Assembly: GCA_027490215.1 (NCBI GenBank)
Contig: JAIXYO010000029.1
Coordinates: 1-64,000, forward strand
From: Rubrivivax sp.
Lineage (GTDB): Bacteria > Pseudomonadota > Gammaproteobacteria > Burkholderiales > Burkholderiaceae_C
DNA length: 64,000 nucleotides
Reading direction: 5' to 3'
The notes below the pieces were generated by a model. It was not told the DNA's origin, ran no database searches, and worked only from the letters and a program-made list of their open reading frames with translations. Made by a program: the position numbers and the translations under genes. Of the stretch, positions 8,705-59,998 are shown piece by piece (position 1 is the stretch's first letter; the number at the start of each line of letters is the position of its first letter).

Positions 8705-8898
8705 GGAGCGCTGAAATTCAGTCTGGAGAGAATCGATCGGTCGACTGAGCGATATGCGGAACGGTTGAGAGTACGTTCTCAATGTGTCTGAGTCTTGACA
8801 TGGGCGCGGCATGGCTTGGCCACGCCAATGTCACAAAGCGCGACTAACCTATCCCGTTGCATGCGGTTTGGCATGTGCACACGGCGCCAGCAAGCGGC

Positions 8899-21949: not shown

Positions 21950-22624
21950 TCACCTGTTGGCGGAAGGGGCGGCAGGCGTTGGCGAGGCGGATGGGGTAAA
22001 GCGCTCGGCATCGGCTCGGTCGCGGTACTCCTGGACGAGGTTGAACATCTGCACGTCGCCGAGCCCCAGCACCGGCTCGCGCTGCGTCAGCACGTCCTTG
22101 ACCGTTTTGCCGCGGTAGCGATCGAGCAGCTCACCGCTGAGGCGGATCAGCTTCGTGTTCTTGGAAGTGCACTCGGTGACCTGCGTGACCTGTTCGTCAT
22201 GCTTGCGCTGGAGCGTCGCCTGCTGCTCGTCGCGCAGCCGGGTGTAGGCCACCAGTTCACGTGCCTTCAGGGCGGCCGCTTCTTCATGATTGCGCTTTTC
22301 ATCGGCAAGCTGCTTGTCGAGTGCGGAGACATTGGCAGCCAGCTGCGCGCGCGTAGCGTCCGATGACTTGAGGCTTTCACTCCCCTTGCGCAATGCGGCC
22401 GTCAGCTTCGTGACCTGCTCGGTCTGCTCGAGCAATTGCTTCTCGACTTCGGCCTTGGCGGACTCGGCCTTGGCCTTGGCATCCTGCGCCTCCTGCAGCT
22501 GTTGCTGCAGGTTCTGAAGCTGGAGTTGAAGTCGGCGTGTCGCCTTGTCGGTGGTCTGCGCAGACGCGCTGACAGACAGGACCAAGGCCAGCAGGCCAAG
22601 CAGGATCGGGCGCGTCACGTTCAT
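21950..22624 (-). CDS. Periplasmic coiled-coil protein
   Basis: A 224-residue exported protein with signal peptide MNVTRPILLGLLALVLSVSA and a long heptad-rich coiled coil (about residues 28-140) rich in Gln, Glu, Lys and Ala, followed by a conserved-looking segment (KNTKLIRLSGELLDRYRGKT) and a Pro/Ala/Ser-rich tail. No catalytic motif. It lies 13 bases downstream of the porin gene in a run that continues upstream with tonB, exbD and exbB-type genes, so it is best read as a periplasmic partner of that energised system. The function is not known; a structural spacer or an adaptor to the inner-membrane complex are possibilities. Confidence 0.75.
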   Translation of the reverse strand: MNVTRPILLGLLALVLSVSASAQTTDKATRRLQLQLQNLQQQLQEAQDAKAKAESAKAEVEKQLLEQTEQVTKLTAALRKGSESLKSSDATRAQLAANVSALDKQLADEKRNHEEAAALKARELVAYTRLRDEQQATLQRKHDEQVTQVTECTSKNTKLIRLSGELLDRYRGKTVKDVLTQREPVLGLGDVQMFNLVQEYRDRADAERFTPSASPTPAAPSANR

Positions 22625-22637
22625 GGTGCGACGACCC

Positions 22638-24251
22638 TCAGAACTTGACGCTCAGGTCGAACTGGAACACGTCGATCGACAGCGGCGCGCCCGAAATCGA
22701 ATCGCCGCTGAAGTAGCGAACTGCCGCCGAGATGTTCTTGCCCAGGCCGTAGCTGCCGCTGAGGATGTAGCCACGCGCATCCGTGCCGCCGAGGCGGAAA
22801 TCACTGTCGGTGAACGCGTCAAGCAGGGCATCGCGCTCGACACGCTTGTAGCCTGCAAACACCTGCCAGTCATGCATGGCCTTGAGCTCTGCGTCGCCAA
22901 ACGCCACCCGCAGGTGGTAGGCATTGACCTCCGCGTCGACATTGGTGCCGACACGCTGGCTCACTGCTGCCCGATCGAAGCCGAAGTTGTGAACATAGTC
23001 AGCCGTGACGATCACCCGCTTGCCGGCGATCGACGGCAGGTCGACCTGACCGGTCAGGTTCAGCAGCTGGTAGTCGGAGGCCAGGCCGAGCAATGGCCGG
23101 GCCAGATCGGACGAGATGTTGTAGTAGGTGTTGCCCTTCTGGGCAAACGCCGGCGCGGTGAACTCGTTCACCGTCGAGCCGGTTGGGCTCGTCTTGCCCC
23201 GCAGGTTGGAGTAGTGGAAATAGGCCAGACCCAGCTTGGCACCCATGGTCCGCGGCGATGCGGCCAGCGTGGCGCCGATCTGCCCGCCGAACAACCACTT
23301 GTCGGCAGAGGCCAACTCGACTTCCTGGATCGGCAGTGCCGCCAGCGTGGCGAAGCCGCTGATGTCGGAAGTGATCTTCGGCGTCCATTGCAGGGCCACG
23401 CCATCGAAGCTCAGGTCGTTGGCCCACATCAGGTCGGTGCCGAACCAGGGGTTGGCCATGCGCCCGGCCACGGCGCTGTAGTCACCCAGGCGGTAGCGGA
23501 TGTACGCCCGATCGATCAGCACGGTAAAGCGGTTGTTGTAGGTGCCCAGCGTCTGGTTCGACGACAGCGGATCGGTCGCGCTGCCGGTGGTCAGCCGCAC
23601 ACCACCCGACCAGTTCCCGTCGATCTTCGCCGTCAGGCCGAGGCGGGCACGAAACCGAAAACGTTCGCGGTCTTCAGACGTGTTCGCCAGAGCGAGCGCG
23701 CGTGTGCGGTTGGTGTCGGTGATGCTGATCTGCGGTGCGTTGCCGTTGGCGAAGCGATCGAGCTGCGTTCGAAATCGCAGGTCACCGTCCCATTGCAGCT
23801 TGCGCACCCAGGCGGGCACCGAACCTGGTCCGGTCCAGCCTTCGCGGAACGCCTGTGCGGCCAGCTCGAGCCGAATTTCATCCTTCAATTCCTTGCGCAC
23901 GAACTCGGGGATGTAAGGCACGCGCACCGTGGCTGGCGCAGGCTGGGTGGCGCCCTTCGCTGCATTGCCTGCCGGCGTCGGCGCGGCAGCCCATGCAGGC
24001 GCGGCGGGAGACGCGGCTGCCGCTCCGGAGGGAGGCGCCACCGGCGCCACACCTGCTTCGCTCAGCAAGGCATTGCCCGCCTCGCGAGCCAGGACCCCTT
24101 GTGCGACGAGCTGAGAGATCAGTTTGGACATCGTCGCGCGCACCTTGTCGACTTCGGACTCCTGGGCGAAGGCCGGCGACGCGACACAGGTGGTCACGGC
24201 CAGTGCTGCGGCGATATGGTGCGAGGCGAACTTCAAGCGGTGTCGTGACAT
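22638..24251 (-). CDS. Putative outer-membrane porin (large, with Ala/Pro-rich linker)
   Basis: A 537-residue outer-membrane protein: signal peptide MSRHRLKFASHHIAAALAVT, a helical segment (VDKVRATMSKLISQLVAQ), an Ala/Pro-rich linker (about residues 70-105), then a beta-barrel of about 400 residues ending in phenylalanine (FQFDLSVKF), the usual BAM signal. Motifs such as GDLRFRTQLDRFANG, VLIDRAYIRYRLGDYSAVAG and ARGYILSGSYGLGKNISAAV resemble the putative-porin (Porin_5-like) family. ATG 24251 gives the cleanest signal peptide; ATG 24287 adds 12 residues. It is flanked by tonB-type and coiled-coil genes, suggesting it is the outer-membrane partner of the energised complex, though porins of this type are not normally TonB-dependent and it shows no plug domain. 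Confidence 0.8.
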   Translation of the reverse strand: MSRHRLKFASHHIAAALAVTTCVASPAFAQESEVDKVRATMSKLISQLVAQGVLAREAGNALLSEAGVAPVAPPSGAAAASPAAPAWAAAPTPAGNAAKGATQPAPATVRVPYIPEFVRKELKDEIRLELAAQAFREGWTGPGSVPAWVRKLQWDGDLRFRTQLDRFANGNAPQISITDTNRTRALALANTSEDRERFRFRARLGLTAKIDGNWSGGVRLTTGSATDPLSSNQTLGTYNNRFTVLIDRAYIRYRLGDYSAVAGRMANPWFGTDLMWANDLSFDGVALQWTPKITSDISGFATLAALPIQEVELASADKWLFGGQIGATLAASPRTMGAKLGLAYFHYSNLRGKTSPTGSTVNEFTAPAFAQKGNTYYNISSDLARPLLGLASDYQLLNLTGQVDLPSIAGKRVIVTADYVHNFGFDRAAVSQRVGTNVDAEVNAYHLRVAFGDAELKAMHDWQVFAGYKRVERDALLDAFTDSDFRLGGTDARGYILSGSYGLGKNISAAVRYFSGDSISGAPLSIDVFQFDLSVKF

Positions 24252-24298
24252 GAGAACGAGGGGGAAGATGGATCGTGTCGGATGCATGGTCGGCGCGG

Positions 24299-24979
24299 TC
24301 AGGAGCGGTTACTGAGCCGCAATTGCATCGGGCGCATGGAACTGGGCGGGATGTCTTTGAGCGGGGTCATGTCGAGCAGCGTCAACTGGATCAGGTCATC
24401 GACCTTGGGGTTGCCGGAGCCGCTGACGATGTCGGCCTTCTGCACTCGCCCGTCATCGCCGAGCCAGATCTTGACGACCACCCTGAACTCTTCCTTCAGG
24501 ACCTTGCGGTTGCGCGACAAGGCTTCATGGAACTGGCGCTGCAGCAAGCCCGAGTAATACGCGCCACCTCCGCCGCCAGTGGTCAGGAAATCGCGACCGC
24601 CCTTGTTGCCCGCCAGCCCGAAACCGTCGGAACCGGCGCCGCCTTCCGCATCAACACCGAGCGGCTTGTCCGACGCGGGCTTGTCGTCGGCCGCCTTCGG
24701 TTCATCGGGCTTGGGCTCGTCCTTCGGCTGATCGATCTTGACTTCTTCCTTCACCTTCGGCGGCTCGGGCAGCTTTTCGGGCGGCTTGGGCGGCGGCGGT
24801 GGTGGCGGCTGCTTGATCAGTGCGACCTGTCGTATGCCGGATGGCTTGGCCGTTGGCCCCGAAAGGAACTTCATCAGCAGCAGCGCCGCAACAACGAGCA
24901 GCGCCAAGCCGCCGAGCGCAAACGCAGCCGTCTTAAGCGAGGAGCGGCGGGGCTCCGTATCGTCGTCGTAGTCGTCCAT
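24299..24979 (-). CDS. TonB family protein
   Basis: A 226-residue inner-membrane-anchored protein: cytoplasmic acidic start (MDDYDDDTEPRRSS), one membrane helix (about 17-38), a periplasmic Pro/Lys-rich region with eight consecutive prolines and an EPK/DEPKP-like stretch (58-105), a Gly-rich linker, and a C-terminal TonB-like domain (FRVVVKIWLGDDGRVQKADI, then GNPKVDDLIQLTLLDM). It should transmit proton-motive energy from the ExbB/ExbD-type motor to an outer-membrane component. It lies 27 bases after exbD and upstream of the porin and coiled-coil genes. Its C-terminal domain is closer to TonB/TolA-C-like family variants than to E. coli TonB. Confidence 0.85.
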   Translation of the reverse strand: MDDYDDDTEPRRSSLKTAAFALGGLALLVVAALLLMKFLSGPTAKPSGIRQVALIKQPPPPPPPKPPEKLPEPPKVKEEVKIDQPKDEPKPDEPKAADDKPASDKPLGVDAEGGAGSDGFGLAGNKGGRDFLTTGGGGGAYYSGLLQRQFHEALSRNRKVLKEEFRVVVKIWLGDDGRVQKADIVSGSGNPKVDDLIQLTLLDMTPLKDIPPSSMRPMQLRLSNRS

Positions 24980-25006
24980 CGTCGGTCGCCCGCGCGCCGC
25001 GGCGCG

Positions 25007-25411
25007 CTACTTCACCAGGCGCTGGGTGACCAGGCCGAGTTGGGTGATGTCGAGCCGTCCCATGAGGTCGAGCACATCGACGACCTTTTCGTAGTGAACT
25101 TTCGCGTCGCCCTTGATGACCACCGGGAAGCTCGGATTCACCGCCTTCAGCTGACGAAGGCGGTCTTCGAGCTCCTGCATGCTCACCGGGTAGGTGTCGA
25201 GGTAGATCTGACCGTCGTCGCGAATGGTGATGGCCTTGGTCTGCGGTTTTGCCAGGCTCGGTGCAGCACTCGCCTTCGGCAGATTGACCTTGATCCCCTG
25301 AACCGAAGCGGTGGTCATGATGATGAAGATCACCAGCAGCACATAGCTGAGGTCGAGCATCGGCACGACGTTGATCTCGTCGTAGGGCTTGCCACCGGCT
25401 TGCATCTTCAT
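25007..25411 (-). CDS. exbD: ExbD/TolR-type biopolymer transport protein
   Basis: A 134-residue protein with one membrane helix near the N-terminus, preceded by EINVVPMLDLSYVLLVIFI. The Asp in PMLDLSYVLL (about residue 19) is the conserved proton-path residue of ExbD/TolR. The periplasmic domain (TIRDDGQIYLDTYPVSMQEL, VVIKGDAKVHYEKVVDVLDL) is typical. It lies 10 bases downstream of the ExbB-type gene and 27 bases upstream of tonB, so a complete motor is encoded together. ExbD and TolR are hard to separate by sequence; the adjacent tonB-like gene favours ExbD. Confidence 0.92.
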   Translation of the reverse strand: MKMQAGGKPYDEINVVPMLDLSYVLLVIFIIMTTASVQGIKVNLPKASAAPSLAKPQTKAITIRDDGQIYLDTYPVSMQELEDRLRQLKAVNPSFPVVIKGDAKVHYEKVVDVLDLMGRLDITQLGLVTQRLVK

Positions 25412-25421
25412 GGTGTGGGCC

Positions 25422-27170
25422 TCAGACCGAGTGGTTCTCGGCGATGCGAGTGATGAACTCGTCGACGAACACCTGCATGTCCGAGGTCAGCTCGGAGATC
25501 TTGCTCTGCAGGTAGTTGTAGCCAAAGAGACAGGGAATGGCGACAGCCAGACCAGCCACGGTGGCGACCAGCGCCGCGGCGATGCCCGGAGCAATGGCGT
25601 TCACATTCACGTCGCCTGCCGCAGCAATGGCGGCGAAGGTGATCATCACACCCACCACCGTGCCAAGCAGACCCAGGAAGGGGCCACCGGCGATCGATAT
25701 GGTGAGCACCACCATCTGGGAGTTGAGACGCTGCAGTTCGCGCACGAGTCGTGCATCAATGGTCGCGCGGATCGCATTGAGCGAGGGATCGGTGAGCGTC
25801 GGGGCGCGCCCCTCCTCCGCATAGACGGAAAAGCGTTTCCGCAATTCGTGGGCGCCGGCGGCATACAGGCGATAAAGCGAGGAGTTCCGGTAGGCCTTGG
25901 CCGCGGCCTTCTCGGCCTTCTCCACGGCGGCGTCCTGTTCGCCGGGTTGGATCGAATTCACCAGCTTCTCGAACTGGGCCTTGAAAAGCTCGTTGTCCTT
26001 GGCCGCCTTGTTCACGAGCATGGCCTTGGTGAACATCACCCAGAAGCTGAGTACGAACATCACGCCCAGGATCGCGATGACCACCCAGCCGTCGATCGTC
26101 ACTGCGTCGAGCAAGATCTTCAGGTACGAGGGGCCGGTGTCACCCTCACCATCGCCTTCGGCCGGGCCATAGACCACCAGCTTCTGATCCTGACCCTGCG
26201 ATTGCGCAGCGGTCTTGATCCAGTCGGCGGAGCGCGCCGTGGTCGACACCTGCAGCTCGTCGATCTCGCCCTTGAAGCCCTTGCCGATGACAGCGCCACC
26301 GCTCAGGTCAGCCACGGCGCCAGCAGCTTTGGCGACCTCCTGCCCGTTCAGATACATCGTCAGCCCGTCTTTCACCACGATGGCGACATGCTGCCAGGCA
26401 CCAGGAACGAGCGGCGCCGAAGCGGTGGCGGTCAGCGTGCCCGACTGCGCCTCCAGCTTGCCGCCGCGCATCGTGATCGACAGCGGTGCTGCGCCTTCGG
26501 TCTGGGTGTAGACCGGCGCATCGGCTGCGTCGGTCGGCTTGATCCAGAAAGACAGCGACAGCCCGTTGGCCCCCGACTTCAAAGAAGGCGTCGACGGCAG
26601 CGCCAATTCGGCAGTGCCATCGAACGAGAGCGCGCCGCCAATCAGACCGGCGCCAATGGCCTTGGCCGTTGAGCTCGCGGCGTGGTTCGCGTTGGCAGTG
26701 GAATCCTGCGGCAGCGTCTCGCGCTCGTTGAAGTGATAGATCAGCCCCTGCGCGGCGTCGTAGCTGCCCTTGACGTCATCGCCTGCGGCCGCATCGGGGT
26801 TGCCGTAATAGAGCCAGATGAAGGCGTCCTTGGCACCCGGCTCGAGCTTCGGCACCTGCACCCAGACGAACGCGAGTTCATTCAGGCCATCGAACTTCTC
26901 GATGTGGTACTTCAGCGGCGTCTTGTCGTCGCTGGCGATGAATCGCAGGTCGGTGCCATCGGGCTTGGCTTCCAGGAATTGAAAGTTGCCCGTGTGGAGC
27001 CGGATCAACACGGCAGGCGAATCGACCGCCGAGGTGATGGCCAGGCCATCAGCAGCCGTGTTCAGACCAATCTTGACGCGCTGCGTCCAGTCGGGATTCC
27101 ATGCGGCGTGGGACAAGCCCGCCATCATCAGGGTCGTCAGCATGACGACCAGCATTGCGATTTTTTTCAT
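25422..27170 (-). CDS. DUF2341-LamG-MotA/TolQ/ExbB fusion protein
   Basis: A 582-residue protein joining a secreted sensor-like region to a proton-channel subunit. Signal peptide MKKIAMLVVMLTTLMMAGLS; DUF2341-like region at about 23-115 (WNPDWTQRVKIGLN, FIWLYYGNPDAAAG); LamG/concanavalin-like region at about 135-315 (GLSLSFWIKPTD, HVAIVVKDGLTMYLNGQEV); a membrane helix at about 358-380; then the ExbB/TolQ core with GGPFLGLLGTVVGVM (about 493) and IAAALVATVAGLAVAIPCLF. Ordinary ExbB is about 240 residues and lacks such a periplasmic head. The head looks like a carbohydrate-binding module coupled to an ExbD/TonB motor. An in-frame ATG at 27212 sits in a duplicated leader and would add 14 residues. 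Confidence 0.88.
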   Translation of the reverse strand: MKKIAMLVVMLTTLMMAGLSHAAWNPDWTQRVKIGLNTAADGLAITSAVDSPAVLIRLHTGNFQFLEAKPDGTDLRFIASDDKTPLKYHIEKFDGLNELAFVWVQVPKLEPGAKDAFIWLYYGNPDAAAGDDVKGSYDAAQGLIYHFNERETLPQDSTANANHAASSTAKAIGAGLIGGALSFDGTAELALPSTPSLKSGANGLSLSFWIKPTDAADAPVYTQTEGAAPLSITMRGGKLEAQSGTLTATASAPLVPGAWQHVAIVVKDGLTMYLNGQEVAKAAGAVADLSGGAVIGKGFKGEIDELQVSTTARSADWIKTAAQSQGQDQKLVVYGPAEGDGEGDTGPSYLKILLDAVTIDGWVVIAILGVMFVLSFWVMFTKAMLVNKAAKDNELFKAQFEKLVNSIQPGEQDAAVEKAEKAAAKAYRNSSLYRLYAAGAHELRKRFSVYAEEGRAPTLTDPSLNAIRATIDARLVRELQRLNSQMVVLTISIAGGPFLGLLGTVVGVMITFAAIAAAGDVNVNAIAPGIAAALVATVAGLAVAIPCLFGYNYLQSKISELTSDMQVFVDEFITRIAENHSV

Positions 27171-27246
27171 GACTGGCGGGAACGACTGTTTCTTATGAAC
27201 AACATTTTTCATGACAGGCGGAAACGACTGTTTCTGATTAACAACG
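27163..27246. repeat. 42-bp tandem duplication covering the start region of the ExbB fusion gene
   Basis: Two adjacent 42-base copies, 27163-27204 and 27205-27246, agree at 37 of 42 positions by eye. Each contains, on the minus strand, the same leader (ending GCCAGTC or GCCTGTC) followed by ATGAAAAA. The result is two in-frame ATG codons 42 bases apart, at 27170 and 27212, with near-identical upstream sequence; translated in frame the peptide KQSFPPVMK occurs at both junctions. It is a direct tandem duplication of 14 codons or of an untranslated leader, depending on which start is used. Confidence 0.9.
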
Positions 27247-27305: not shown

Positions 27306-28493
27306 CTAGGTGACAGTGCGGATGTCAGCGGCGTGAAGTCGATATGACGAAATCGTGTCGTACAAACGCTTCGTGGCCGCCTTCATGCGGAAGTGGCGCT
27401 CGTAACAATCAGCTGCGTGCTGACGCATTGCGGCACGGCTCTCTGGGTCCATGTTCAGCCAACCCGTCAGCGTCTCGAGGGTACCCCCCAGGGTGTCGCT
27501 GCCAACGAGGCCGGCTCCGTCTGCGAGGATCTCCCGCCAGATGTTGATCTTGTCGGAAATCAGCACCGGCAAGCCAGACGCCAGCGCTTCGGCCACGGCG
27601 ATGCCGAAGTTCTCTTGATGCGAGGGCAGCGCAAAAACCTCTGCCGCTTTCAGGGCCGACCACTTGGCCTTGCCCTGGAGCATGCCGGTCCAAGTGATCC
27701 GATCGGCCACGCCCAGCTCGGCCGCCATTCTTTCCAGGCCCGCGCGGGTTTGTGCGGCATCATCGGGCCCGGCCATCACCAGGTGCAGGTTCGGCTCGCT
27801 CTTCGCCAGCATGGCAAAGGCCTGGATCAACAGGTCACAGCCCTTCTTGGGATGGATGCGGCCCAGGAACAGGATGTTGCGCCTTCCGCGAGTGGCCGGC
27901 CATGCCGCCCAGAATGTCTCGGGATCGGCGAGCGCAGCGGTGTCGCTGATCTCAGTGCCGTAGCCAACCACGGCTTCACGCACCCGGTACATCGGCGAGA
28001 AGGTCTGGCGCGCCAGACGCGCCTCGTCTTCGGCCGTGAACAGCAGCGCTGCAGCATCGCGCAGCACCCGGTACTCGGCCCATGGCCAGTAAAGCAACTT
28101 CTTCAGGTGCTTCAGCGGGTACTCACGCCGGAACCAGGGGTCGAGCATGCCATGCGGGAACACGAAGTAGGGTATGCCTGTGCCCTGGAGCGCGTTGCGG
28201 GTCGCCAGACCGTGCCACTGCCAGAGTCCGTGGATAACCACTGCGTCGTACTCATGCCCGTGCTTCCGCAGCCAGGGAGTCAGCTCTGGGGTGTAGCCGT
28301 AGGTGCCCCTTCCCGGGCCGACAGCGTGGGTCACGGTCGGGAAGTCCAACAGCCAGGGTTCGCCCGGCGCATCGAGCGTCAGCACTTCCTGGTCCTGCCC
28401 CAACTCGCGCGAGGCAATAGCGATCTGCCGCAGGCCCTCGGCTGGTCCGCCGTTGACCGGATTGAGCGATCGGATGATGTTCAGCAGTCGCAT
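27306..28493 (-). CDS. Glycosyltransferase, GT4 family
   Basis: A 395-residue GT-B enzyme. The N-terminus MRLLNIIRSLNPVNGGPAEG has the GT4 glycine-rich loop; the C-terminal half has NILFLGRIHPKKGCDLLIQA and ALPSHQENFGIAVAEALASG, in which ENFGIAVAE is the EX7E donor-binding motif. Start ATG 28493 is the first residue of the family core. It lies 16 bases downstream of the giant adhesin gene on the same strand and is probably co-transcribed with it, so it could act on the adhesin or on a polysaccharide; the family as a whole favours lipid-linked or polysaccharide acceptors. Donor unknown. Confidence 0.85.
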   Translation of the reverse strand: MRLLNIIRSLNPVNGGPAEGLRQIAIASRELGQDQEVLTLDAPGEPWLLDFPTVTHAVGPGRGTYGYTPELTPWLRKHGHEYDAVVIHGLWQWHGLATRNALQGTGIPYFVFPHGMLDPWFRREYPLKHLKKLLYWPWAEYRVLRDAAALLFTAEDEARLARQTFSPMYRVREAVVGYGTEISDTAALADPETFWAAWPATRGRRNILFLGRIHPKKGCDLLIQAFAMLAKSEPNLHLVMAGPDDAAQTRAGLERMAAELGVADRITWTGMLQGKAKWSALKAAEVFALPSHQENFGIAVAEALASGLPVLISDKINIWREILADGAGLVGSDTLGGTLETLTGWLNMDPESRAAMRQHAADCYERHFRMKAATKRLYDTISSYRLHAADIRTVT

Positions 28494-28509: not shown

Positions 28510-31500
28510 TCATTTCACGAAACAGTCCTTCTGCTGCTCCTTGCAGTTCTTGTCGCCAAAGCCCAGCACCTCGACGGTCAGGATGGTCGGCTTCTGCATT
28601 CCATCGGCGGAGGCTGCCTTGGCGGCAGCGGCGGCGGCCTTGCCGGCCTCGTCGGCCGAGTTGCCGCCCGACTGGGTATTGCTGCCACTGGTGGCCACGC
28701 TGGAGGCCAGGCTGCCTGCCACACTGACCGGCACGCCAACCGCTGGCCCACCCGAGGAAATGTTGCTGGCGTTGAGGACCGCTTGCGCATCCACGAAGAT
28801 GGCGCCGCCCGAGCGGATGCCGGCCTCCCCGGCGTCGACCACCCCTGCCAGCGTGATCAATGTCGTGGACCCGGCACTCGGTGCTGTCAGCGGCCCGAGT
28901 CCGTCGGGATCGGACGTCAGGGTCTGGATGCCGCTGCCGGCGGCGCTCGCCGGCAACGTGTAGGTGAAGCCCACGACGACCGGCTCGGTGGCCCCCTCGG
29001 GCGTCACCAGGATCGGTGTTCGCGTCGGTGGCGGGGTGCTCAGCGAGGTCAGCGCACCGCGCCCAGCATCGATGTTGGCGTCGGTGCTGAGGATGAGGAT
29101 GTCACCGCCCTGGGCCGTGAGCACCTTACCCTGGTTGATGCTGAAGTTGCCACCCACCACGCCGCGAATCCCGCCCCCTGCATTGGTGAGCACGCCAATC
29201 GTTCGGCCTTCACCTGGCGTCGTCAGGCCCACCACGATCTTGCCATTCGGCGCCCACAACTCGATACCGCCGCCTGCGTAGCTCTGAATGGACGTCAGGT
29301 AGCTGCTGATGTCGCCCTGAGCGACAGACGCCTGCGGAATGGCCTCCGCGATGACACTCTTGAATACATCCGCGTAGACCACGCGGACCGGGTCTAATGT
29401 CAGTGGAAGCGGAACGCCATTGCCCAGACGCAGCTGGTATTCGTCGAGCACGCGCGGGTATTTCCGGTCAAGTTCCGCGTAGGCGAGATAGGCCGATCCG
29501 CCCTGCGTGCCCGACACCAGGTCGGCCACCGAGCCAGCAGCAAGGATGGCCTGCCTGTTGCTCTCGCCGTTGAGCAAGGCGTACAAGCTCTCCACCTGTG
29601 GCCGGAGGGCTGCCCCACCAAGAGGCAGCGCCTTCGGCCCACCCAGAGGCGAGCTTGCGGCTTGCTGATAGGTCGCCAGCAGTTGCGGGTACTCGGATGC
29701 GAGCGCGGTGAAGGGCGCGTAGGCAGGGTCCACTGCGGCCAGCTCGGCCACGCTGTTTGCCGACAGCACCCTGGCCTGCTGCGGGTCGGTATCAAGCAGC
29801 CGGAACAGCTTGAACACGTCGGGGTTGCTGGCGCTGATGCCAGTGATCTTGGCGTACGTGGCGTCGAGCTTGGCGAGATCCACATTGCCAGTGGCGCCCG
29901 CAATCAGCGTCACCAGCGCGCCTTTATCGCTGCCGAGGCTCGGGTTGAACACATTGCCCGTGGAGACCACCCCGCCCAGACGCGAGCTGCCACGCACGAT
30001 GTCAGCAGAGCCCAGGTCAACGTTGCGTCCGGCCTGGACGACAAGGCGTCCGGGACCGGCAATCTCAATGCCCGCTGGCCGCACGTCGCCAACCTCGGCC
30101 CGCACGACGCTCACATCGGAGCTGTTCAGGTTCTGCAGAAGCAAGGCCACATTGCCGATGTCCCGTCCTGCACTGACCCGGCTTACGGCCGGCAGGGACA
30201 TCGTCACCGTATTGCTGGTACTCGACCCCACATCGCCGGTCAGCGCCTGGAGGTCGAACACATAGCCGTCCACGGGGCTCCGGTTCACCAGTCTGCCCTC
30301 GCTAGCAGCCGGGAGCAAGGCCGAACCCGACAAGCTGCGCGGGCCTCGTGACGGTTGCGCCACGCCAGGTACTGCCGAGGGAAGTCGATCCGAAGCCGAG
30401 AAAGCGAGGTCGCGCAGCGAGCCCTGGGCCAACGCGGAAACTTGCGCCGATGCCGATGGGAAGGACACGATGCCTTCGAAGCTGTCGTTCGAGATGTCAC
30501 CCTCGAACGCCGCAGCTCGGATTGACGCAGGATAGGCGCCCGCCCCGCTCAGCTGAGTGCTGGTCAGGGCCTGCGAAGGCACGACAGTCCGCGCTGCGGC
30601 GAGCTGGCTACCGAGGACGATATCTCCCGACTTGGCGGTCACGTCCACGGCACTGTTGCCGGAATAGCTGAAGAATGTCCTCACGCTGGAGCCGGTCCCG
30701 GCAAAGCTCGGGCCGCAGGCGAGGCAGTTGGCCGGGAGGCCGGCCGAGGTCCGGTCCTCGGCGCGGGAGTTGTTCATCCACACCGCAGTGGGATCGTTCA
30801 CGCTCTGCAGTGCGACTGTGCCGCCGGCCTCCACTTGCAGGGTCGCCTCGGCAGGCACGTCGCCGCTGCTGGTCCCCTGCAGGTAAAGCTGCGTACGGGC
30901 ACCCGAACCCACCGCACCACCGGCTTCGATGCGTCCCGTTCCGCGCCCGACCAGGTAGGAACCGCCCTTGACGTCGCCGCCTGCCGTGACGCGAAGGTCG
31001 CCGCCTCCCTGCACGTCCAGCACCGTGCCACTGCCCTGCACCACGTTCCGACCGCTGGTCGGCAGCATGGCCGAGAGACCGTCCACGTTTCGGCCCGCCG
31101 CGAGCTGGATATCACCGCCGCCGAGGGTGCCAACGCCCTGCTGGAAGTTCGGTCGGTAAGCCCACCAATCCGCATTGGCCGTTCCGCTGGTACTGGTGCG
31201 CGGCCGGCGCAGCCACTCGGTGATCCACTGGTTGGAGTTGCCCACTGCATCGCGGCCGGCCGCAATCGAGATGCTGCCGCCCTCCTTCGCCCAGCGGTTG
31301 TTGCCGTTCGCCTCGGTGTCGGCCGCCCCGATCTTGCCAGCGGTGTAGACCACGCTTCGCAGCGCATCCATCCGGAAATCCGCTGCCGCGGCGATTTCGA
31401 TGCTGCCGGTCCCCGTGCGCACCTTGCCGCCGTCGGTGCTGATGGTGACATTGCCACTGGATGCCCCGGCTCCGCCCTCAAGTGCCTGGGCCGTCAGCGA

Positions 31501-34500
31501 TCGTTGGGTCGCCAGCGGATTGGCGGCACCCAGGTCGGCCCCGCCAACCAGCCGAAGGTTCCAGCTGTCGCCGGCCAACAGGTTGTCGTTCGGGTTGCCG
31601 AGCGCTCGGCTCACCGTCAGGTCACCTGCGGCACGCAGCGAAAGGGTACCCGTCCGGCCGATCGTCGCTGCGCCGCTGGCGCCGGCTGCCAGCCACTGGC
31701 TCGTGGTCAAGTCCCACGGCTGCGCCAAGGTCAAATTGCCCTGGGCCTGAATTTCGGTCGCTCCTCGTACGCTCGCCCGCACATCGCCCTTGAGGCCAGC
31801 CATGAGCGCAGGGTTGGCAGCTGCAATGAAGGCGGCGTGATTGGCGGCGTAGCTGGCAATGCTGGAGGCGCTGATGCTGCCGGCAGCCTGGTAAACCCGC
31901 TGGGCCTGCAGCGCCACGTCGGCTGCGGTGCCATTGCCGCCCCGCACACCGCGCACCGTACCAGCCAGCGCCACTGGCGCCACCACGTTGGCGGCGTTGC
32001 GGGCCACGGTGAAGGTGACGCTGCCGGTCCGGCCCTTGACGCCGGGCCTGACGTCGATCTCGGACGCTGCATCGAAGCTCAGTGCTCCACTGGTCGTGGA
32101 CAGGCGCACCTGCCCGCCGTGGGCCGCAGGTGCCTGCGCTGAAGCGTTCGTGCTGGTGCCGTCGGCCCACACCCGGGCGCCCGTCAGCGCCAGGCCGTTG
32201 GCCGCCCAGACATCTACCTTGGCGCCGCCATCCACCGTGCGTGCGTTCAGGGTGCCCTCGATGTCGATGCGGCCGGCGTCTGCCGCCAGACTGATCTCGC
32301 GCGCGGTCACCATGTCGGTGCTCTGAACGCGCAGGTCGCCACTGCGAACCCGGATATCGCGGCGCGCATTGAAGCCACCGTCATTCAAGGCTGTGTTGAT
32401 GTCGCTGAATTCAGCCAGCGTGCCCGCATCAAGCTCAAAGCGGCCGCCGGCTCCGCCCGCTTCGGCGCCGCCACGCAGCGATCCGTCCAGCGCGAGGGTC
32501 TGCGCCGCGACCTGCACGCTGCCGGCACTGCCGCCAGCCACGCCGCGCACATCGACGACTGCCCCGTCGGCGATCGCCACGGCACCTGCATCGGAGGCCA
32601 GATCCACCCGGCCCGCACCGGCAACCACCTGTTTGCCGTTGTAGTTCTTCGCCACACCGCGCACATCGAGCATGGCGCCCGCACCAAGCATCACGCTGCC
32701 CGTGTCAGCTTCACTGCCTTTCGCGGCGATCGCGATCTCGCCCGATCGGGCCTGGATCGTCGTCGTGACATCGACACTGCGACCTTCGAGTGTCAAGCGC
32801 CCACCAGCCGCCTGACTGTCGGTCACCGCCGTGCCGCTGCCACCCACCGACTTCTCGACAGTCATCGCCCGGTAGTCCGCTGTGCCCGAGCGGCCGTCGA
32901 CGGCCTGCCAGGTCTGCTTTGCGCCTGCGGCCACTCCGACGCGAGGCGCCTGGAGAGTCCAGTCCGCAGCCACCTGCAGACTGCCTTGGTCTTCACCTCT
33001 GATTTCGCTGGCTGCGGTGGTGGTCACCGAAGCAAATCCGCTGATGGTCTTGTCGCCCTGGCCGAGGATCAGGCGCTCGGCACTGACCTTCAGTTCGCCA
33101 ACCGACTCGGTCGACGCCAAGGGCGCGGTCGACCCGGTGTTGACAAGCCTGACCTCGCGCGCCGCAATCGTCGGCGCCGACGGCCCCACGCCTGTCACCG
33201 CCAGACCGCGCAGCGCGTTGGCGTCCAGCGTCAGCCTGCCGAGGTCCGTGCTGCCGAGCACCGCGGAGCCGAACAGGTCGATGCCGTCGTAGCCCTTGAT
33301 CGTCAACGAATCGACCGACGTCAGGGCGAGCAAGTTGGCATTGGACAGCGCCAGCCCGCTGTCAAGGCCGGCGATCCCGTCGATCTGGCCCAGACTTACC
33401 TGTGAAGAGGCCAGCGACAGATCGCCACCGACCCGTTTGGTCTGGTTGTTGACCATCGTCGAGCGGCCCACCAGCAGATTGCCCTGCGAACGGGTGCTGC
33501 TCGTCGCATCGAGCAGCAGGGCACCGTCGGCCTGGAGCGTGGCGCCTTGCGCGACGCTGATGGTGCCAACCGAACGGTTGGTCGAGCCGCCGCGGTCCAC
33601 TTCAGCTTGCGGGCCGCTGGAGAGTCTCAGCAGCGCACCACCGGACTCCGTGCGGTAGGTCGGCGTTTCGCCAACGGCGGCCACACCTGCGCCCGTGATC
33701 AGGCTGCCTTCGCGAACCTCGATGTCTTCGCTGGCGGCAATCAGCAATTCCGGGGCACGCAGTTCGGTCGCGGCCTGATTGGCCACCAGCACCCTGCTGG
33801 CGCCGGTCGTGATCTGCGTCGAGCCGTCGGCGTTGTCGCTGCGGCGGCCACCGATCAGAACGCTGCCGCCGATGCGCGAGATGCCGCCGGCGCTAACCTG
33901 CAGGTAGTCGGCGTCGATACCGGCCTGCCCCACTGCATCGACCACCGCAATGCGGTCGGCGCTCAGATCGACCGTCGCGGAGCGACCCGTGCGGGTGCCC
34001 GTCGCGCCGGTCACCGCTCCCGCCTGCGTCCGGAAGCTGCCATCGAGCGTGAGCGCGGACACGTCGGCGATGGTCAGTCGGCCCGCATCGATCGGAAGCC
34101 GCGGGACGGGCTTGCGGTCGCGCGTGGCCGCATCGGCAAAGAAGGCTGAATCCGACAAGGTGTAGTCTGACTCGCGCAGCGCATCGGAGCCGGGGCGAAC
34201 CAGCACGCCGACGGTGGTGGACTCGCGCACGTTCGTTCCGGCCGCGGTGCGGTATCCCGCCACCACCGTTTGTCCGTTGAGCAATGGCGTCGTCTGGCCG
34301 GGCTTCATGTTGCTGAAGGTACTGCCGGTCTGCAGCTGTACCAGGAAGGCGCCCGGCACCAGGGCATAGCGCCCCGGCAGCAGTACGTACTCGCCCTCGG
34401 GCACGACGGCGCCGGCGCCGATGTAGAGGCTGTTGTAGACGCTCGTGTCTCGACTGGCCGTCTGAGGCCCAAAGCCAAGGTCCTGGCGCGAGGCAATGTC

Positions 34501-37500
34501 GGTATCTACCGGTAGGCTGCCGAGCCTGGACTTCGGAATGATCGCGAAGGTATTTGGCTTCAGCAGCGTGTCGGTCGCCCCCCCGGCGCCAGGAACGAAC
34601 TCGATGGCCTGCACTTCGCCGCCGCCCGCGAGGTTGACAGTGGCTTGCGGCCGAACGTCCACCTCCCGGCCCGAGAGTTCAATGCCTTTGTTCACCGTGC
34701 TCGGCTGCGTCAAGGTGCTTCTGGATGATCCGTCGTCCGCATACACCCAAGTGATGCCCGACGACGTCGTGCCCAGCGGTACGGTCAGACCATCGGCCGA
34801 TACCGAGCTCAGGCTGCCGGGTGCCAACTCGAGCCGGGACTGAGCGCTCAGGCGCAGTTCGCCCTGGGGTGCTTTCAGCGTGCCGCCCTGCTCGATGGTG
34901 TCGGCCTTGAGCGTCAGCCTGCCGCCCGCGGAGTAGACGTCTGCAACCTCCCGGCCGCTTTGAGCCACCCTGATCACACCGCCGGGGATCACGGTCCCCG
35001 ACGGCTGGTCGACGACGTTGAAGGAGAAATCGGTCCGTGTGCTGGGATAGACCTGTGAAGCCGTCAAGGACAGATTCCCCGCCGTCGTGAGACCCCCCAC
35101 CGTGCCGGGGGCACCGTCGATCCTTCGGCCCGACAGCTGAATGTCGCCCTGCGCCAACAGGCGCGTCTCGGCGACGCCGTTCACGCTGGTGGAACCGAAC
35201 AGATCAATACGCTCTGCCAGCACGGTGAGCAGCCCGCCACCCCCTCGCGTGGCCAGCACCGGCGAAATGCTGTTGGGCTCCACCTCGAAAGACACGCCTT
35301 GGAAAACCCGTGGCCCCAGAGACTGCCCGATTTCCACGTCAGCTGCCGCCACATTCACCTGCGCACCGTTGTACACATCGATCAGCGGAGCATCGAGCCG
35401 CACCCCGCGCTCGAATGCCAGCGTCGCGTCGGTGTCGAAGCGGATGCTGTTCTCGGCGAGCAGCCGCAGCTTGTCGAAGCCGGCCTGCTGCAGTGCGTCG
35501 ACCGAGATCGCCGCATCCACGAAACCCGCTTTGGCAGCGGGCAAAGTGCTAGGCTGTGTGATCACGATTCGCCGTTCTTCTGGCTGTGTGGTGCGGCCGT
35601 TCGGCGTCGTCAATTCCAGCGCGAAGCTGCCCCCGGCACTGGTCGCGGAAGCCTTGGCCGCCGATATCGTGCCCTCGAGCCTCGCCGTCTCCTGGCTCTT
35701 GACCACGAGCGTGCCCGCATTGCCGTCGAGCCGCCGCTGCGACGTGCCCGACGCTCGTGACGGATCGACGTCGTCCACCATCTGCGACACGCCACTGAGA
35801 TCGAGCCGAGAGCCTGCCGTCACGAGGATGCCCGCGTTGACCGATTCCAGCGCAATCGTGCCGGCACCCACCACAGCGCCTTGCACCAGCCCGTTGTCGT
35901 TCGGACTGGGCACGAAGGTCCCTGCCACGGAAATCTCCGCGGACGATCCGAGCGTCAAGTCGGGTATCTTGAAGAAACCATTGCCCGCCAGCCGCAGGGC
36001 CACGTTCCCTCCCGGGGCGCTGATGCGGCCATCGATCAGCATGCCGTCACTGGCCGTCAGGGTCACGCGGCCACGCGGGTCGGTGGTGATCGACGCGTCG
36101 GCGGCGAGGCCGAGTGTGGCCGGCGTGATGCCCGCGCCGGTCGTAGTCGTGGCCAGTGTCAGGTTGGCCGCTTGGCGAAGGTGGTCTGGACGGCGTTCGA
36201 CGCGGCTCACCGATGCCAGATCGCCGCCGGTCGTCAGTGCCAACGCCGCCACCGGGTCGATCACGAGATTCTTCTGCGACACCACCAGGTCAGCTCCAGC
36301 ACGGATCTCAATGCCCTCGCTGCTGCTGATCTGGAAACTGGCGAAGCCGTACTGCGCGAACAATTCGGGAGACAGGCGCGTGGTGTTGGCCGGCAGCGTG
36401 CCATTGGCGCCAAGCGCGTCGATCACGACGCGCGGCGTGCCGATGTTCAACGATCCGCCGTTGCCGGGCGCAATGCCATTCAGATCGGCCTGCAGCCAGT
36501 CGGAACTCAGGTCCGCGGACAGGGCATTGGTCAGGCTGATCGAACCGCCGTTGCCACCGGTCACGCGGCGACTGCGATCGAGCGCGGCACCCCCGCCGAC
36601 GTCGAGCGTCGAGCCCCGCTCCAGGCGCGTGGTCGAATCAACAGGCCCGGCAATCGTGATGCTGCCGCCATTCAAGGTGGAGCTGGTGCTGCCATTTGCA
36701 TTCAAGAGTCCAGTCGGCAGCACATCACCCACGTAGGAACCGTCTGCACTGGCTGTGTTGACCCACACCCCATTCGTCGACAGTGTCGCGCCGCTGCGAA
36801 TCGTGGTGCCGAAGCTCTGCGCCGTATCGATCGGTGCAACGGTTCGTTGGGGCCGCAACGCGATCTGGCCGGCTGGCATATCGATCGAGCCGGCCACCTC
36901 GAGCGTCGGCGCACGCAGCAGCAGCGACGAGCCCGGCGCTCCTTCGATGCTCACGCCGCCAGGCACGAAGACCTTGCCGTTGGAGTTGACTTCCACGCTG
37001 CCGAAGGCGGTCTGCTGCAACGTGTTGGCGGCGACGACCGTGGAAGCGCCGAACAGCTGGCTGGCGGCCAGCCTGACCTGGTCCTTCTGCGACTGGCTCA
37101 AGGCGGTGTCGATGCCGAAGCCCGCTCCAAGGGTATCGACCGCGGTCTGGCCGAAGCTCACGTTGCCGATGCGTTGCCCTTCGACAAAGTCGGTGCCCTC
37201 GTTGTTCAGGCTGCCAATCTTGAGCGTGGCGCCGCGCGGCGCACGCGCGAGCTGGTTCGGCCCCACGGTGGAGCCGCCCTTCAGGGTGCCGTCCAGTACC
37301 AGCCCGGCGCCCGAGTTCACGAGGATGCTGCCGCCGGCCTTGCCTTCTACATAGGCCGCTTCCCGCGGCGCCAGTCCGTAAAGCAGACCCTGGTGGGCGA
37401 CGGTCTGCCCCCACCGGTCATAGGTCTTCGTGAAGGTGTCTGCCACGGCCGTGTACGAACGGTCCTTGGCTGCCGTGCCGATGTCGTACAGCCTGCCATC

Positions 37501-39550: not shown

Positions 39551-41104
39551 TTAGAACGGAGCCTTCGGAGCCTGGCAGTTATCGATCGCAGATCCGCCGA
39601 CGAGGCGGTTCCACGGGTTCACAGGCGTGGCGCCGGTGAAGTCGGGAGTGCCACCTGTCGTGAACGAAGCCATCAGACCCGACTTGCCGAAGGTCTGGTC
39701 GGAGCCGTTGATCAGGTTGATGATCGTCGGGTTCTTGATATCGCTCTTGAAGCGGGTCAGGAAAGCCGCGTAGCCCAGAGCGGTGGCCGTCGGCAGGGTG
39801 GCACCCGTACGGGTGTTGATCGAGGCATCGGTGTAGAACTGGTACTTGCCCGCAGCCACATCGGCGTGGATCGGCGCATTGCCGTCCACCTTGACGAAGC
39901 GCCAGCCGCTCGCGCCCGGCTTGACCTCGCCGGTCTGCATGCCGATCGCACCGCGCAATTGCGTCTGGTGGTTGTTCATGCAGGTCGACACGTCGCCGCC
40001 GCCGGAGCCCGCGAACACCGCTGGAGCGGTCGGATCAGCACTGTCAGCCAGATTGCAGACTGCCGCCGCGTCACCCGTGGTGGTGCCGCTATCGGGCGTC
40101 ACGAATGGGTCCACCGTACCGCCCGGGCAGCTCTTGAATGCCGGCTGGCCATTGCCAGTGCGCGCCACCAAGGCTTCAAAGGTCTTCTGCGTACCCGACG
40201 AATCCACGCGGCGAGCCACGTAGATGGTGTCGTTCGCGAGGCCTGATGTCACGCCGATACCGGCCCAGGTCTGGCCGGCAGCGGTAAAGGCCGAAGTGAG
40301 CTGCCCGCGGGTGAGCGAGGGCATGCAGTCCAGCGTATCCAAGCCGACGCAGCCGGCAGCCAGGTTACCGATCTTCGGAACCGCAGTGGCGAGTTGCTGC
40401 GTCTGCAGGGCATTGCGGATGTTGGTGGTCACCGGCACGCCGAAGATCAACGCGCTCAGCGGCTCTGAGGCCAGGTTGGTCGTGGTGTTGGTGAAGAAGC
40501 CCGGCTCGACGTCTGACAGCCCGATGTACGACACGCGACCGGAGGTCAGCAACGTGCTGGTGGCGGAGGTCGCCAAGGCGCCGCTGGTAGCAACGGTGTT
40601 GCAGACCACGTTGACGTAGGTCGCCAGGGGGCCGGTGCCATCGAAATCAACCGTGCTGGTGGCAGCGTTGGTACCGGTACAGGCCGGTGCGGTGGCCAGC
40701 TTGGCGAGGTCCAGGAAGGCCAGGGTCGAAGCCAGGTTCACCGGGTCCACACCGGCGCCGGAGCCGCCAACCGAGTACTTGTAGATGGCGAGCTTGGTCT
40801 TGGCCGGGACCGTGACTGGCAGGTTGATCTGGCCTGCGCCGGCGCCGACGTCGGGGGTGCAGAAGAACACCACATTGTTGGTCGTCAGCTGGTAACGGTG
40901 CAGCGATCCAGCGGTGCAATACGAGAGGGCAGAGCCCAGCACGCCATTGTCCTGCGCGGTCGCACCGGAGATGCGGATGTTGAACGTGTCGCCAGTGACC
41001 TCATCGGTGTTCGTGTACGAGCTGGCAGGCAGCGCGAAGGCCGAGGCCGAAGCGAGTGCGCCGCAAATCACGCCGACGGCTTGGGAAATCTTTGAGAGTT
41101 TCAT
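39551..41104 (-). CDS. Secreted protein of unknown function, Cys-containing
   Basis: A 517-residue exported protein: signal peptide MKLSKISQAVGVICGALASA with cleavage near AFA-LPASS. The mature part starts NIRISGATAQDNGVLGSA, which vaguely recalls the first strand and helix of PstS-like periplasmic binding proteins (SGATA at the ligand loop), but no family was firmly recognised. It has about ten cysteines in apparent pairs (SYCTAG, FFCTPDV, AGCVGL, DCMPSL, SCPGG, VCNLA, TCMNN, NCQAP), suggesting disulfides. ATG 41104 gives the signal peptide. It lies between the VPLPA-CTERM gene and tpsA, has its own terminator, and may be an abundant envelope protein. No exosortase tail. Confidence 0.75.
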   Translation of the reverse strand: MKLSKISQAVGVICGALASASAFALPASSYTNTDEVTGDTFNIRISGATAQDNGVLGSALSYCTAGSLHRYQLTTNNVVFFCTPDVGAGAGQINLPVTVPAKTKLAIYKYSVGGSGAGVDPVNLASTLAFLDLAKLATAPACTGTNAATSTVDFDGTGPLATYVNVVCNTVATSGALATSATSTLLTSGRVSYIGLSDVEPGFFTNTTTNLASEPLSALIFGVPVTTNIRNALQTQQLATAVPKIGNLAAGCVGLDTLDCMPSLTRGQLTSAFTAAGQTWAGIGVTSGLANDTIYVARRVDSSGTQKTFEALVARTGNGQPAFKSCPGGTVDPFVTPDSGTTTGDAAAVCNLADSADPTAPAVFAGSGGGDVSTCMNNHQTQLRGAIGMQTGEVKPGASGWRFVKVDGNAPIHADVAAGKYQFYTDASINTRTGATLPTATALGYAAFLTRFKSDIKNPTIINLINGSDQTFGKSGLMASFTTGGTPDFTGATPVNPWNRLVGGSAIDNCQAPKAPF

Positions 41105-41164
41105 GGAGGTGTCCTCAGAAGGATTGAAGGTGTAGATAGATCTGTCAGTCATGGCTCCGCCCTG

Positions 41165-41190
41165 CACCGGGGAACTCGCGTTCCCCGGTG
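41165..41190 (-). terminator. Strong hairpin downstream of a VPLPA-CTERM gene
   Basis: Perfect 11-base arms CACCGGGGAAC (41165-41175) and GTTCCCCGGTG (41180-41190) around a 4-base loop, 40 bases after the stop of the gene ending at 41230 and about 60 bases before the ATG at 41104. No T-tract follows on the minus strand, so it may be a partial terminator, an mRNA-stabilising hairpin, or an attenuator between the two genes. Confidence 0.5.
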
Positions 41191-42057: not shown

Positions 42058-42235
42058 GTGAAGTCTCTCCTGGGTTGAATTAGAAAAATGTCTGTCAAGC
42101 AAGGAGCTTGGGTTGGAAAGCCCTTGATCTCCCCTATCAGGCAAGCCCGACCTCAATCTGCCTTGCTGATGTCGTTACTTTAGAAATCCAGCGTGTCGTG
42201 CGTGTGTGCGTGATCGCTGACTTCGTAGCTCGTTT

Positions 42236-51719: not shown

Positions 51720-52130
51720 TCACCAGCTTTCATAAGGTTCGCCATCGAGGCTGTTGCCGGGCGCTCCGCTGCGCACGTCGTACACGCCTTCGCGCACTTC
51801 ACCTTCCGGCGGTGGCAAGGTGATCCAGGTCGATGAGCTTTCGGTGATGGGGTCTGGCGGGACGCTGCGCAGATAGCGCTTTTCCGCCAGTTCGTCCAGG
51901 GTCTGCGGATAGCGGCCACGATCCGCGAGGTACTTGTCGATCGCGTCGCGCATGATGTGAAGGTCCTGCTTCAGCACCGCTTCGCGGCTGCGTTCAACGC
52001 TGTTGAAATAGCGCGGCAAGGCCAGCGTCAGCAGGGTCGCGATGATGGACATCACCACCATCAACTCGATCAGGGTGAAGCCCGTTGTGCGGGTCAACCG
52101 CGTCGACCTGAGATGCACGCTGCTCACCAC
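51720..52130 (-). CDS. Type II secretion-like pseudopilin (GspG-like)
   Basis: A 136-residue protein with prepilin leader and cleavage site TRTTG-FTLIELMVVMSIIATLL, where Glu at +5 is conserved. The mature part (AVLKQDLHIMRDAIDKYLAD, RGRYPQTLDELAEKRYLRSV, PPDPITESSSTWITL) is GspG-like. ATG 52130 overlaps the preceding gene by seven bases. It is the last gene of the ten-gene secretion operon; a TAACGGC/GCCGTTA repeat (51681-51707) lies just downstream. A true start a few codons later (a GTG within HLRSTRL) is possible. Confidence 0.85.
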   Translation of the reverse strand: MVSSVHLRSTRLTRTTGFTLIELMVVMSIIATLLTLALPRYFNSVERSREAVLKQDLHIMRDAIDKYLADRGRYPQTLDELAEKRYLRSVPPDPITESSSTWITLPPPEGEVREGVYDVRSGAPGNSLDGEPYESW

Positions 52131-55178: not shown

Positions 55179-55188
55179 CGCGTCCTGC

Positions 55189-59968: not shown

Positions 59969-59998
59969 CGGAGGCAAGTGCGGGGGCGCGCAGGCACA

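Follow-up and report, generated by a model that had tools for sequence, protein, structure and literature searches.

Gene content of the motor cluster

The window analyzed here, a 64-kb stretch of contig JAIXYO010000029.1 from Rubrivivax sp. (a 3.5-Mb genome in 72 contigs, 99.6% complete), harbors on its minus strand, from position 27212 down to position 21950, five adjacent open frames whose products are, in order, an ExbB-type fusion protein, ExbD, a TonB-like protein, a Porin_5 barrel, and a coiled-coil protein (Table 1). This set had been outlined in a first-pass annotation made from the sequence alone, and it is borne out by the open frames and by Pfam; the low coordinate proposed at that point, 21950, was exact, whereas the ExbB gene reaches position 27212 rather than 27170. 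The unit as first drawn omitted the genes for a giant TpsA protein, located upstream of the motor, and for the TpsB transporter, which together represent a two-partner secretion (TPS) system.

The ExbB fusion was correctly described at first pass as bearing an exported N-terminal head unlike that of normal ExbB; the attachment of DUF2341 to the N terminus of ExbB-type subunits, where its function is unknown, is already in print (PMC12505986). The sequence profile of the LamG part of this head also matches solved LamG and pentraxin-like folds, and TolQ and ExbB are the nearest relatives of the channel among solved structures. Head and channel align together in 74 sequences, that of the window included, which rules out a fusion artifact of one assembly, a possibility that the first-pass annotation had itself raised. 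The channel motifs GPFLGLLGTVVGVMITF and AALVATVAGLAVAIP are kept across 74 aligned sequences, while the ExbD membrane segment PMLDLSYVLLVIFIIM retains its acidic residue (Asp), the PMLDL segment being likewise conserved (61 aligned sequences). Because the channel motifs and the membrane Asp of ExbD are conserved, the motor looks functional. The ExbB, ExbD, and TonB proteins match the NCBIfam models for TolQ/ExbB, TolR/ExbD, and TonB below the cut-off in each case (best scores, 123 of 221 bits for TolQ and 97 of 127 bits for TolR; TIGR01352 for TonB), and they therefore form a group of their own.

No plug domain was present among the Pfam matches of the Porin_5 protein, and sequence searches of the PDB with this protein returned no usable match; the coiled-coil protein, which is exported and ends in a conserved C-x3-N segment, matched no Pfam family. 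As stated at first pass, no TonB-dependent receptor accompanies the set, the window containing no match to PF00593, while six such barrels are encoded elsewhere in the genome. Nine MotA/ExbB proteins are encoded in this genome, just two of them in frames of fusion size; given this and the location of all six receptor barrels outside the window, the five genes look like a dedicated, additional motor of the cell. A second motor set, with two tandem ExbD genes, is located in the same genome (locus L003; G000:C44:170000-188000), where it directly follows another giant DUF3739 protein. Tandem ExbD genes were also seen in loci L027 and L203.

The TpsA protein of the window, of 3,524 amino acids, combines a TPS secretion domain (residues 73 to 327; PF05860, E 4.6e-24) with a DUF3739 domain close to its C terminus (residues 3326 to 3453; PF12545, E 3.9e-23). 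Its N terminus matches the structures of EtpA, of a haem/haemopexin-binding protein, and of an entry called Adhesin, which we take to be HMW1. No paper on DUF3739 was found in a search of the open-access literature.

Conservation of the cluster and co-occurrence with DUF3739 proteins

Related loci were collected with the window ExbB protein, and the best 80 of 91 confirmed candidates were compared. The nearest ExbB matches stem from Burkholderiales metagenome-assembled genomes (95% identity to CANHNO010000137, locus L004). All five genes, from ExbB to the coiled-coil protein, are present and in order in 67 of the 80 loci; in 12 further loci a contig end truncates the set, and the one that remains, L068, possesses ExbD and TonB, with no porin match within the 4.8 kb of downstream sequence. 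The conservation of the set in other genomes, suggested as a check at first pass, is thus evident, as is one of the two associations named there, that with TPS loci: TPS genes are present in 71 of the 80 loci. In 69 of these, a TPS gene on the same strand (TpsA in 35, TpsB in 34) ends no more than 1.7 kb upstream of ExbB, while in L030 and L073 an upstream TpsB gene is overlapped by an over-long predicted ExbB start. No TPS gene was found in the examined DNA of nine loci (L008, L012, L013, L014, L023, L028, L062, L067, and L077). A genome-wide search for DUF3739 covering six of these nine (L008, L012, L013, L014, L023, and L067) detected the domain elsewhere in five of the six genomes; overall, 9 of the 10 genomes queried in this way possess DUF3739, that of L014 being the exception. 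TpsB is linked in all 10 class genomes examined besides that of the window, although G043 shows only a partial match some 14 kb away.

Beyond the five genes and the TPS genes, most loci yielded no additional conserved partner. In 12 of the 80 loci, the gene immediately after that for the coiled-coil protein belongs to a PPIC-type isomerase family (L018, L038, L040, L043, L044, L045, L065, L070, L071, L079, L080, and L083; three members were checked against Pfam, all being PPIC type), and a Wza-type gene lies in the examined DNA of nine (L005, L008, L010, L012, L013, L014, L018, L029, and L054). YbjN genes were observed in some loci (L043 and L163).

Co-occurrence was further assessed at the genome level in 184 genomes spread over the class of the window and in 397 genomes of its phylum, two samples that share five positive genomes (G000, G088, G101, G112, and G129). 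In the class sample, DUF3739 was detected in 11 genomes, DUF2341 in 15, Porin_5 in 24, and generic TPS domains in 63. All 11 DUF3739 genomes possess DUF2341, the four other DUF2341 genomes carrying it in frames of 1,093 to 4,506 amino acids, and full-length Porin_5 matches (E <1e-130) occur in exactly the same 11 genomes, the remaining Porin_5 matches being partial (E 1.8e-34 or worse). The corresponding Fisher P values with DUF3739, uncorrected for kinship, are 9e-15 for DUF2341 and 7e-18 for Porin_5. Because the DUF2341 match of one of these genomes (G096) is not such a fusion, the ExbB fusion itself was demonstrated in 10 of the 11. DUF3739 TpsA, headed ExbB, and full-length Porin_5 thus co-occur near-perfectly across the class, and this, together with the gene order seen in 67 of 80 loci, rules out a chance clustering of the five genes. 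In the phylum sample, 19 genomes possess DUF3739, and the 18 with DUF2341 all fall within these 19. Since genomes G358 and G507 each encode three DUF3739 proteins per motor, a single motor may serve several TpsA proteins.

The TpsA proteins with DUF3739 share a C-terminal layout, in which this domain is followed by a low-complexity linker and then by a short, strand-like conserved motif starting 10 to 74 residues from the end. An initial regular expression for this motif was drawn after inspection of the tails and was replaced by a profile test. The profile was trained on 45 tails (those of the window, L003, and L004 to L083, the L068 tail being a fragment of a broken frame) and applied to a held-out set of 32 other tails, thinned to 27 nonredundant sequences; six of the 32 (L084 to L089) derive from genomes whose motor locus is among the 80, these tails themselves being absent from training. 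Of the 27 held-out tails, 21 scored higher than the 99.9th percentile obtained by shuffling, and the scores of 23 were reached by none of 200 shuffles. Whereas the held-out tails had a median score of 20.4 bits, the highest value among 980 internal windows of the same TpsA proteins was 12.4 bits. None of 17 complete tails of TPS proteins lacking DUF3739 reached the threshold, the best scoring about 0 bits; these 17 remained of 20 chosen places after three that ran off their stretch were dropped (L183 being kept despite masked bases), and three of them come from genomes that also carry the system. A generic association of the motor with TPS is ruled out by these 0 of 17 tails and by the occurrence of TPS domains in 63 of the 184 class genomes. 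The Porin_5 proteins possess a conserved motif of their own, V-[PT]-Y-[VI]-P-E, which lies in the N-terminal periplasmic stretch, is strand-like, and is followed by a helix; a pattern lacking one valine variant was present in 53 of 69 porins, and the alignment added that variant.

A similar arrangement is known from Pseudomonas aeruginosa, in which the PUMA3/sigma-VreI cluster comprises pdtA, phdA, pdtB, exbB2-exbD2-tonB4, PA0696 (a putative porin), PA0697, PA0698 (YbjN), PA0699 (PpiC), and PA0701 (LysR) (PMC7035377). According to this published annotation, it matches the present set in its types of gene and in their order, the coiled-coil protein being the counterpart of PA0697 by position, and from gene order alone we infer that the ExbB2 head and the PdtA tail of strain PAO1 are the same as those described here. 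The 67 loci mentioned above represent the PUMA3-type order from ExbB to the coiled-coil gene; a longer version is present on a Klebsiella plasmid (L163), where a DUF3739 frame is followed by TpsB, headed ExbB, ExbD, TonB, porin, coiled-coil, YbjN, isomerase, and LysR genes (YbjN confirmed by Pfam, isomerase and LysR by the annotation of the record). The window departs from PUMA3 in that TpsA is directly upstream of the motor while TpsB is far away, and in that a Wza-type gene, instead of YbjN or isomerase, follows the coiled-coil gene, with GT41 and exopolysaccharide genes flanking the cluster. Llamas et al. (2009) described TPS, ExbBD, and PA0696 homologues as traveling together in several species (PMC2729926), and PdtA, PA0696, and PA0698 are reported to rank with the most strongly enriched proteins when phosphate is limiting (PMC9769906). 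The system is real, widespread, and largely uncharacterized, and part of it has been published as a gene cluster of P. aeruginosa. The first-pass view of a novel energized envelope system stands insofar as the conserved, energized system looks real; the gene cluster of P. aeruginosa, however, was described as early as 2009 (PMC2729926). In the open-access literature, judged mostly by listings, no paper was found which links DUF2341-ExbB, DUF3739, and Porin_5 or proposes an energized TPS.

Predicted role of the motor and alternative explanations

Because the motor and the giant TpsA occur together so regularly in related bacteria, the former probably helps to export or handle the latter. We propose, at a probability of roughly 0.58, that the five genes encode a dedicated, ion-motive-force-driven energizer of a TPS system with a DUF3739-type giant TpsA. 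The following steps are suggested by the gene content, gene order, co-occurrence, channel motifs, and tail motif observed above. TpsA would leave the cell via TpsB with its N terminus first, while DUF3739 and the flexible tail would remain in the periplasm. By beta-augmentation, the TonB-like protein is then presumed to take hold of either the TonB-box-like tail of TpsA or the VPYVPE motif in the porin, and ExbB/ExbD would exert a pull driven by the proton (or sodium) gradient, which would serve to finish export or, at the surface, to hold, release, or clear TpsA. On ExbB, the DUF2341-LamG heads could form a periplasmic ring with TpsA or glycans on it, the coiled-coil protein, or the cell wall as its ligand, and this ring may couple the load to the motor, with the coiled-coil protein and, in some loci, the PpiC-type isomerase possibly guiding the chain. 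The more specific claim that this class of TPS is actively powered, its own ExbB-ExbD-TonB motor gripping the TonB-box-like TpsA tail and working on TpsA across the outer membrane (in export, retention, or release) by means of an ExbB ring with a load- or ligand-sensing head, is advanced tentatively, the odds being somewhat against it as a whole. Were it correct, it would give a meaning to DUF3739, to DUF2341 on ExbB, and to Porin_5 at once, and would also explain the uncharacterized exbB2-exbD2-tonB4-PA0696-PA0697 genes of P. aeruginosa; with a motor all but genetically inseparable from one TPS class, and a cargo tail motif, the view that type V secretion needs no energy becomes testable. Consistent with a functional connection, a single P. 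aeruginosa promoter transcribes phdA, pdtB, exbB2D2, tonB4, and PA0696 to PA0701 (PMC4971064).

The proposed energizer shares with known TonB-ExbB-ExbD systems the channel motifs, the membrane Asp of ExbD, and a TonB protein with a membrane helix, a Pro-rich spacer, and a C-terminal domain. It differs in the exported DUF2341-LamG head of ExbB, in ExbB and ExbD scores that fall below the NCBIfam cut-offs, in the lack of a receptor in the window, in its Porin_5 barrel, and in its association with TPS genes. An ExbB-type protein with a large N-terminal extension is also represented by TtpC/DUF3450, associated with TonB2 in Vibrio, although that extension is a different domain and serves siderophore uptake with no TPS involved. 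DUF3450 is named in PMC12505986. With classical two-partner secretion (type Vb; FhaB/FhaC, HMW1, and HxuA/HxuB) the system has in common a TpsA with a TPS domain and a linked TpsB of the ShlB/POTRA type, to which the dedicated motor, DUF3739, and the tail motif are here added.

Several observations weigh against the proposed energizer role. The likeness of the tail motif to a TonB box was judged by eye against a general consensus and is presumptive. Four held-out tails (L099, L112, L123, and L129) fail both the percentile and the shuffle tests, and two more (L095 and L124) fail the percentile test alone. In loci of the Nitrospirota or Deltaproteobacteria type (L065, L068, L070, L071, L072, and L074) the tail is a different one, and no porin motif is present where the sequence can be read. 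The TonB_2 (PF13103) match is weak, being just over the cut-off in the window (E 4.6e-5; 23.9 bits against a cut-off of 22) and just below it in the second motor set, L003. As the porin has a conserved periplasmic motif of its own, TonB may act there instead of at the tail, or perhaps grips neither of the two. The genomic associations are also imperfect: genome G096 possesses DUF3739 (in a TpsA at a contig end) and Porin_5, yet its sole DUF2341 match is a 1,631-amino-acid open frame without ExbB, and G412, in the phylum sample, has DUF3739 but no DUF2341 match. Ten kilobases upstream of the motor in L013, L014, L023, and L067 are devoid of TPS genes, and the L014 genome has no DUF3739 match at all. 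A three-gene variant of the headed motor (ExbB-ExbD-TonB, with PLMDLAW in ExbD) is present in L103, L104, and L105, in whose examined DNA no porin, coiled-coil, or complete TPS gene was found. Type V secretion is, moreover, held to need no energy source, TPS export having been shown to work in vitro without external energy (PMC5422565). Lastly, P. aeruginosa insertion mutants in tpsA, tpsB, tonB (PA0695), and PA0696 were each as virulent as the wild type in zebrafish (PMC2729926), a result that speaks strongly against none of the readings considered here because secretion was not measured in the passages of that paper available to us.

The best rival to an energizer of TpsA export is an uptake system, in which TpsA, at the surface or after release, would capture a substance that Porin_5 then imports as an unplugged barrel driven by TonB, the motor acting on the porin via VPYVPE. 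The precedent is HxuCBA, whose barrel uses the general TonB of the cell and has no motor of its own. HxuCBA shares with the present system a TPS pair combined with a TonB-energized outer membrane barrel, HxuA/HxuB/HxuC thereby lending the idea weight (PMC5422565), but its barrel is a TonB-dependent transporter, whereas that of the window belongs to Porin_5. Such a role would account for the perfect co-occurrence of Porin_5 with TpsA in the class sample and for the strong conservation of the porin motif. As phosphate starvation induces the cluster of P. aeruginosa, the imported substance may be a compound of phosphorus; PhoB control and a nearby alkaline phosphatase gene are described for that cluster (PMC4971064, PMC7035377, and PMC9769906), and a PstS-like gene lies beside TpsA in the window and in four of 10 class genomes. 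The class-specific tail motif of TpsA and the isomerase gene would be left unexplained, however, and the lack of a plug among the Porin_5 matches and of a TonB-dependent receptor in the window likewise makes uptake appear rather unlikely.

A mechanical use of a displayed adhesin was also considered, whereby the motor would move or tension surface TpsA for adhesion-based movement or retraction, as in AglRQS/Glt or GldLM/SprB gliding. The parts correspond (an ExbB/D-type motor, a TonB-like arm, an outer membrane barrel, a periplasmic coiled coil, and a giant adhesin-like protein), the likeness to the Agl/Glt and Gld machineries being a presumed one; nonetheless, with no gliding-family match among the five proteins in Pfam or NCBIfam, and with no further conserved partner gene in most loci, this explanation is very improbable. 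Least likely of all is the energized polysaccharide export or sensing machine, tied to an XrtA exopolysaccharide cluster, which the first-pass annotation had suggested: the Wza-type gene that follows the set in the window, the exosortase gene of the window, and the loci L013 and L014 with their TPS-free upstream regions (L014 with its DUF3739-free genome) fit it, but TPS genes in 71 of 80 loci against Wza-type neighbors in nine, and DUF3739 elsewhere in the genomes of five of six tested TPS-less loci, led us to reject polysaccharide export as the main role.

Neighboring genes and side observations

Several genes around the motor and TPS genes may be accessory to the system (Table 1).

Table 1. 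Features of the window and their supporting evidence
Feature	Position	Strand	Evidence
Exported coiled-coil protein, conserved C-terminal C-x3-N segment	21950..22624	-	Alignment of 62 sequences
Porin_5 barrel with periplasmic N-terminal stretch	22638..24287	-	PF16930, E 8.7e-152
TonB-like protein: membrane segment, Pro-rich spacer, short TonB_2 C-terminal domain	24299..24979	-	PF13103 and sequence
ExbD	25007..25411	-	PF02472, E 5.6e-29
ExbB-type fusion, 596 amino acids: signal-like N terminus, then DUF2341, LamG, membrane region, channel	25422..27212	-	Pfam
MotA_ExbB channel (PF01618) of the fusion, residues 476-580	~25473-25787	-	Pfam, E 1.5e-27
LamG (Laminin_G_3) of the fusion, residues 198-333	~26214-26621	-	Pfam, E 1.9e-16
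DUF2341 of the fusion, residues 85-170	~26703-26960	-	Pfam, E 1.7e-16
GT4 glycosyltransferase between TpsA and ExbB	27306..28493	-	Pfam
Giant TpsA, 3,524 amino acids, upstream of motor	28510..39084	-	PF05860, PF12545
TonB-box-like C-terminal motif of TpsA, LTVEVLGFGD, residues 3502-3511	28552..28581	-	Alignment and profile test
Weakly PstS-like exported binding protein beside TpsA	39551..41167	-	PF12849, E 0.0015; TIGR02136, E 3.6e-4; both below cut-off
VPLPA-CTERM protein	41230-42156
Two overlapping TPR and Glyco_transf_41 (GT41) genes, between TpsA and TpsB	42415..46754	-	PF13844, E 2.9e-82 and 5.7e-48
TpsB outer membrane transporter (POTRA_2 and ShlB)	46770..48383	-	PF03865, E 7.5e-21; PF08479, E 1.5e-16
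Type II secretion genes: secretin, GspE, GspF, pseudopilins	51720-60415
Exosortase with DUF3485	8857-10503

A glycosyltransferase gene like that between TpsA and ExbB lies just upstream of ExbB in four of the 80 relatives (L004, L005, L008, and L010), and the GT4 enzyme is for this reason regarded as accessory. The TPR-GT41 pair possibly represents enzymes of TpsA glycosylation; GT41 matches were also observed 3′ of the coiled-coil gene in L048, L061, and L064. As for TpsB, the lack of an N-terminal plug helix was suspected, an impression too uncertain to claim. A Wza-type gene is next after the coiled-coil gene, and exopolysaccharide genes and GT41 flank the cluster, an exosortase gene with DUF3485 also being present in the window. 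A VPLPA-CTERM protein is encoded beside the TPS genes, and relatives of it are found near TpsA in L193, L196, and L198.

The PstS-like protein is a possible counterpart of LapA/LapB, and its relatives adjoin TpsA in four of 10 class genomes (L192, L195, L196, and L197). Type II secretion genes, present in the window, occur in the DNA around TpsA in two of the 10 class genomes (L191 and L195) and also in G521 and L164, stretches that differ in length. The neighbors of pdtA in P. aeruginosa include lapA and the Hxc type II system (PMC7035377 and PMC2729926). Together, these findings hint at a recurring island of type II, PstS-like, and TPS genes. The three-gene motor variant of L105 sits among genes which by eye resemble pseudopilin or type II secretion genes.

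FecR-like and ECF-sigma gene families surround mainly alphaproteobacterial loci (L038, L040, L041, L043, L079, L080, and L083), one member of each having been confirmed. Extra TonB-domain genes were observed in those FecR/ECF-sigma loci, one of them with a weak STN match (L043:4426-5253). A signaling domain combined with a TolA/TonB-like domain has been described for VreA (PMC2729926), and for proteins of this kind the tail of TpsA might likewise act as a signal.

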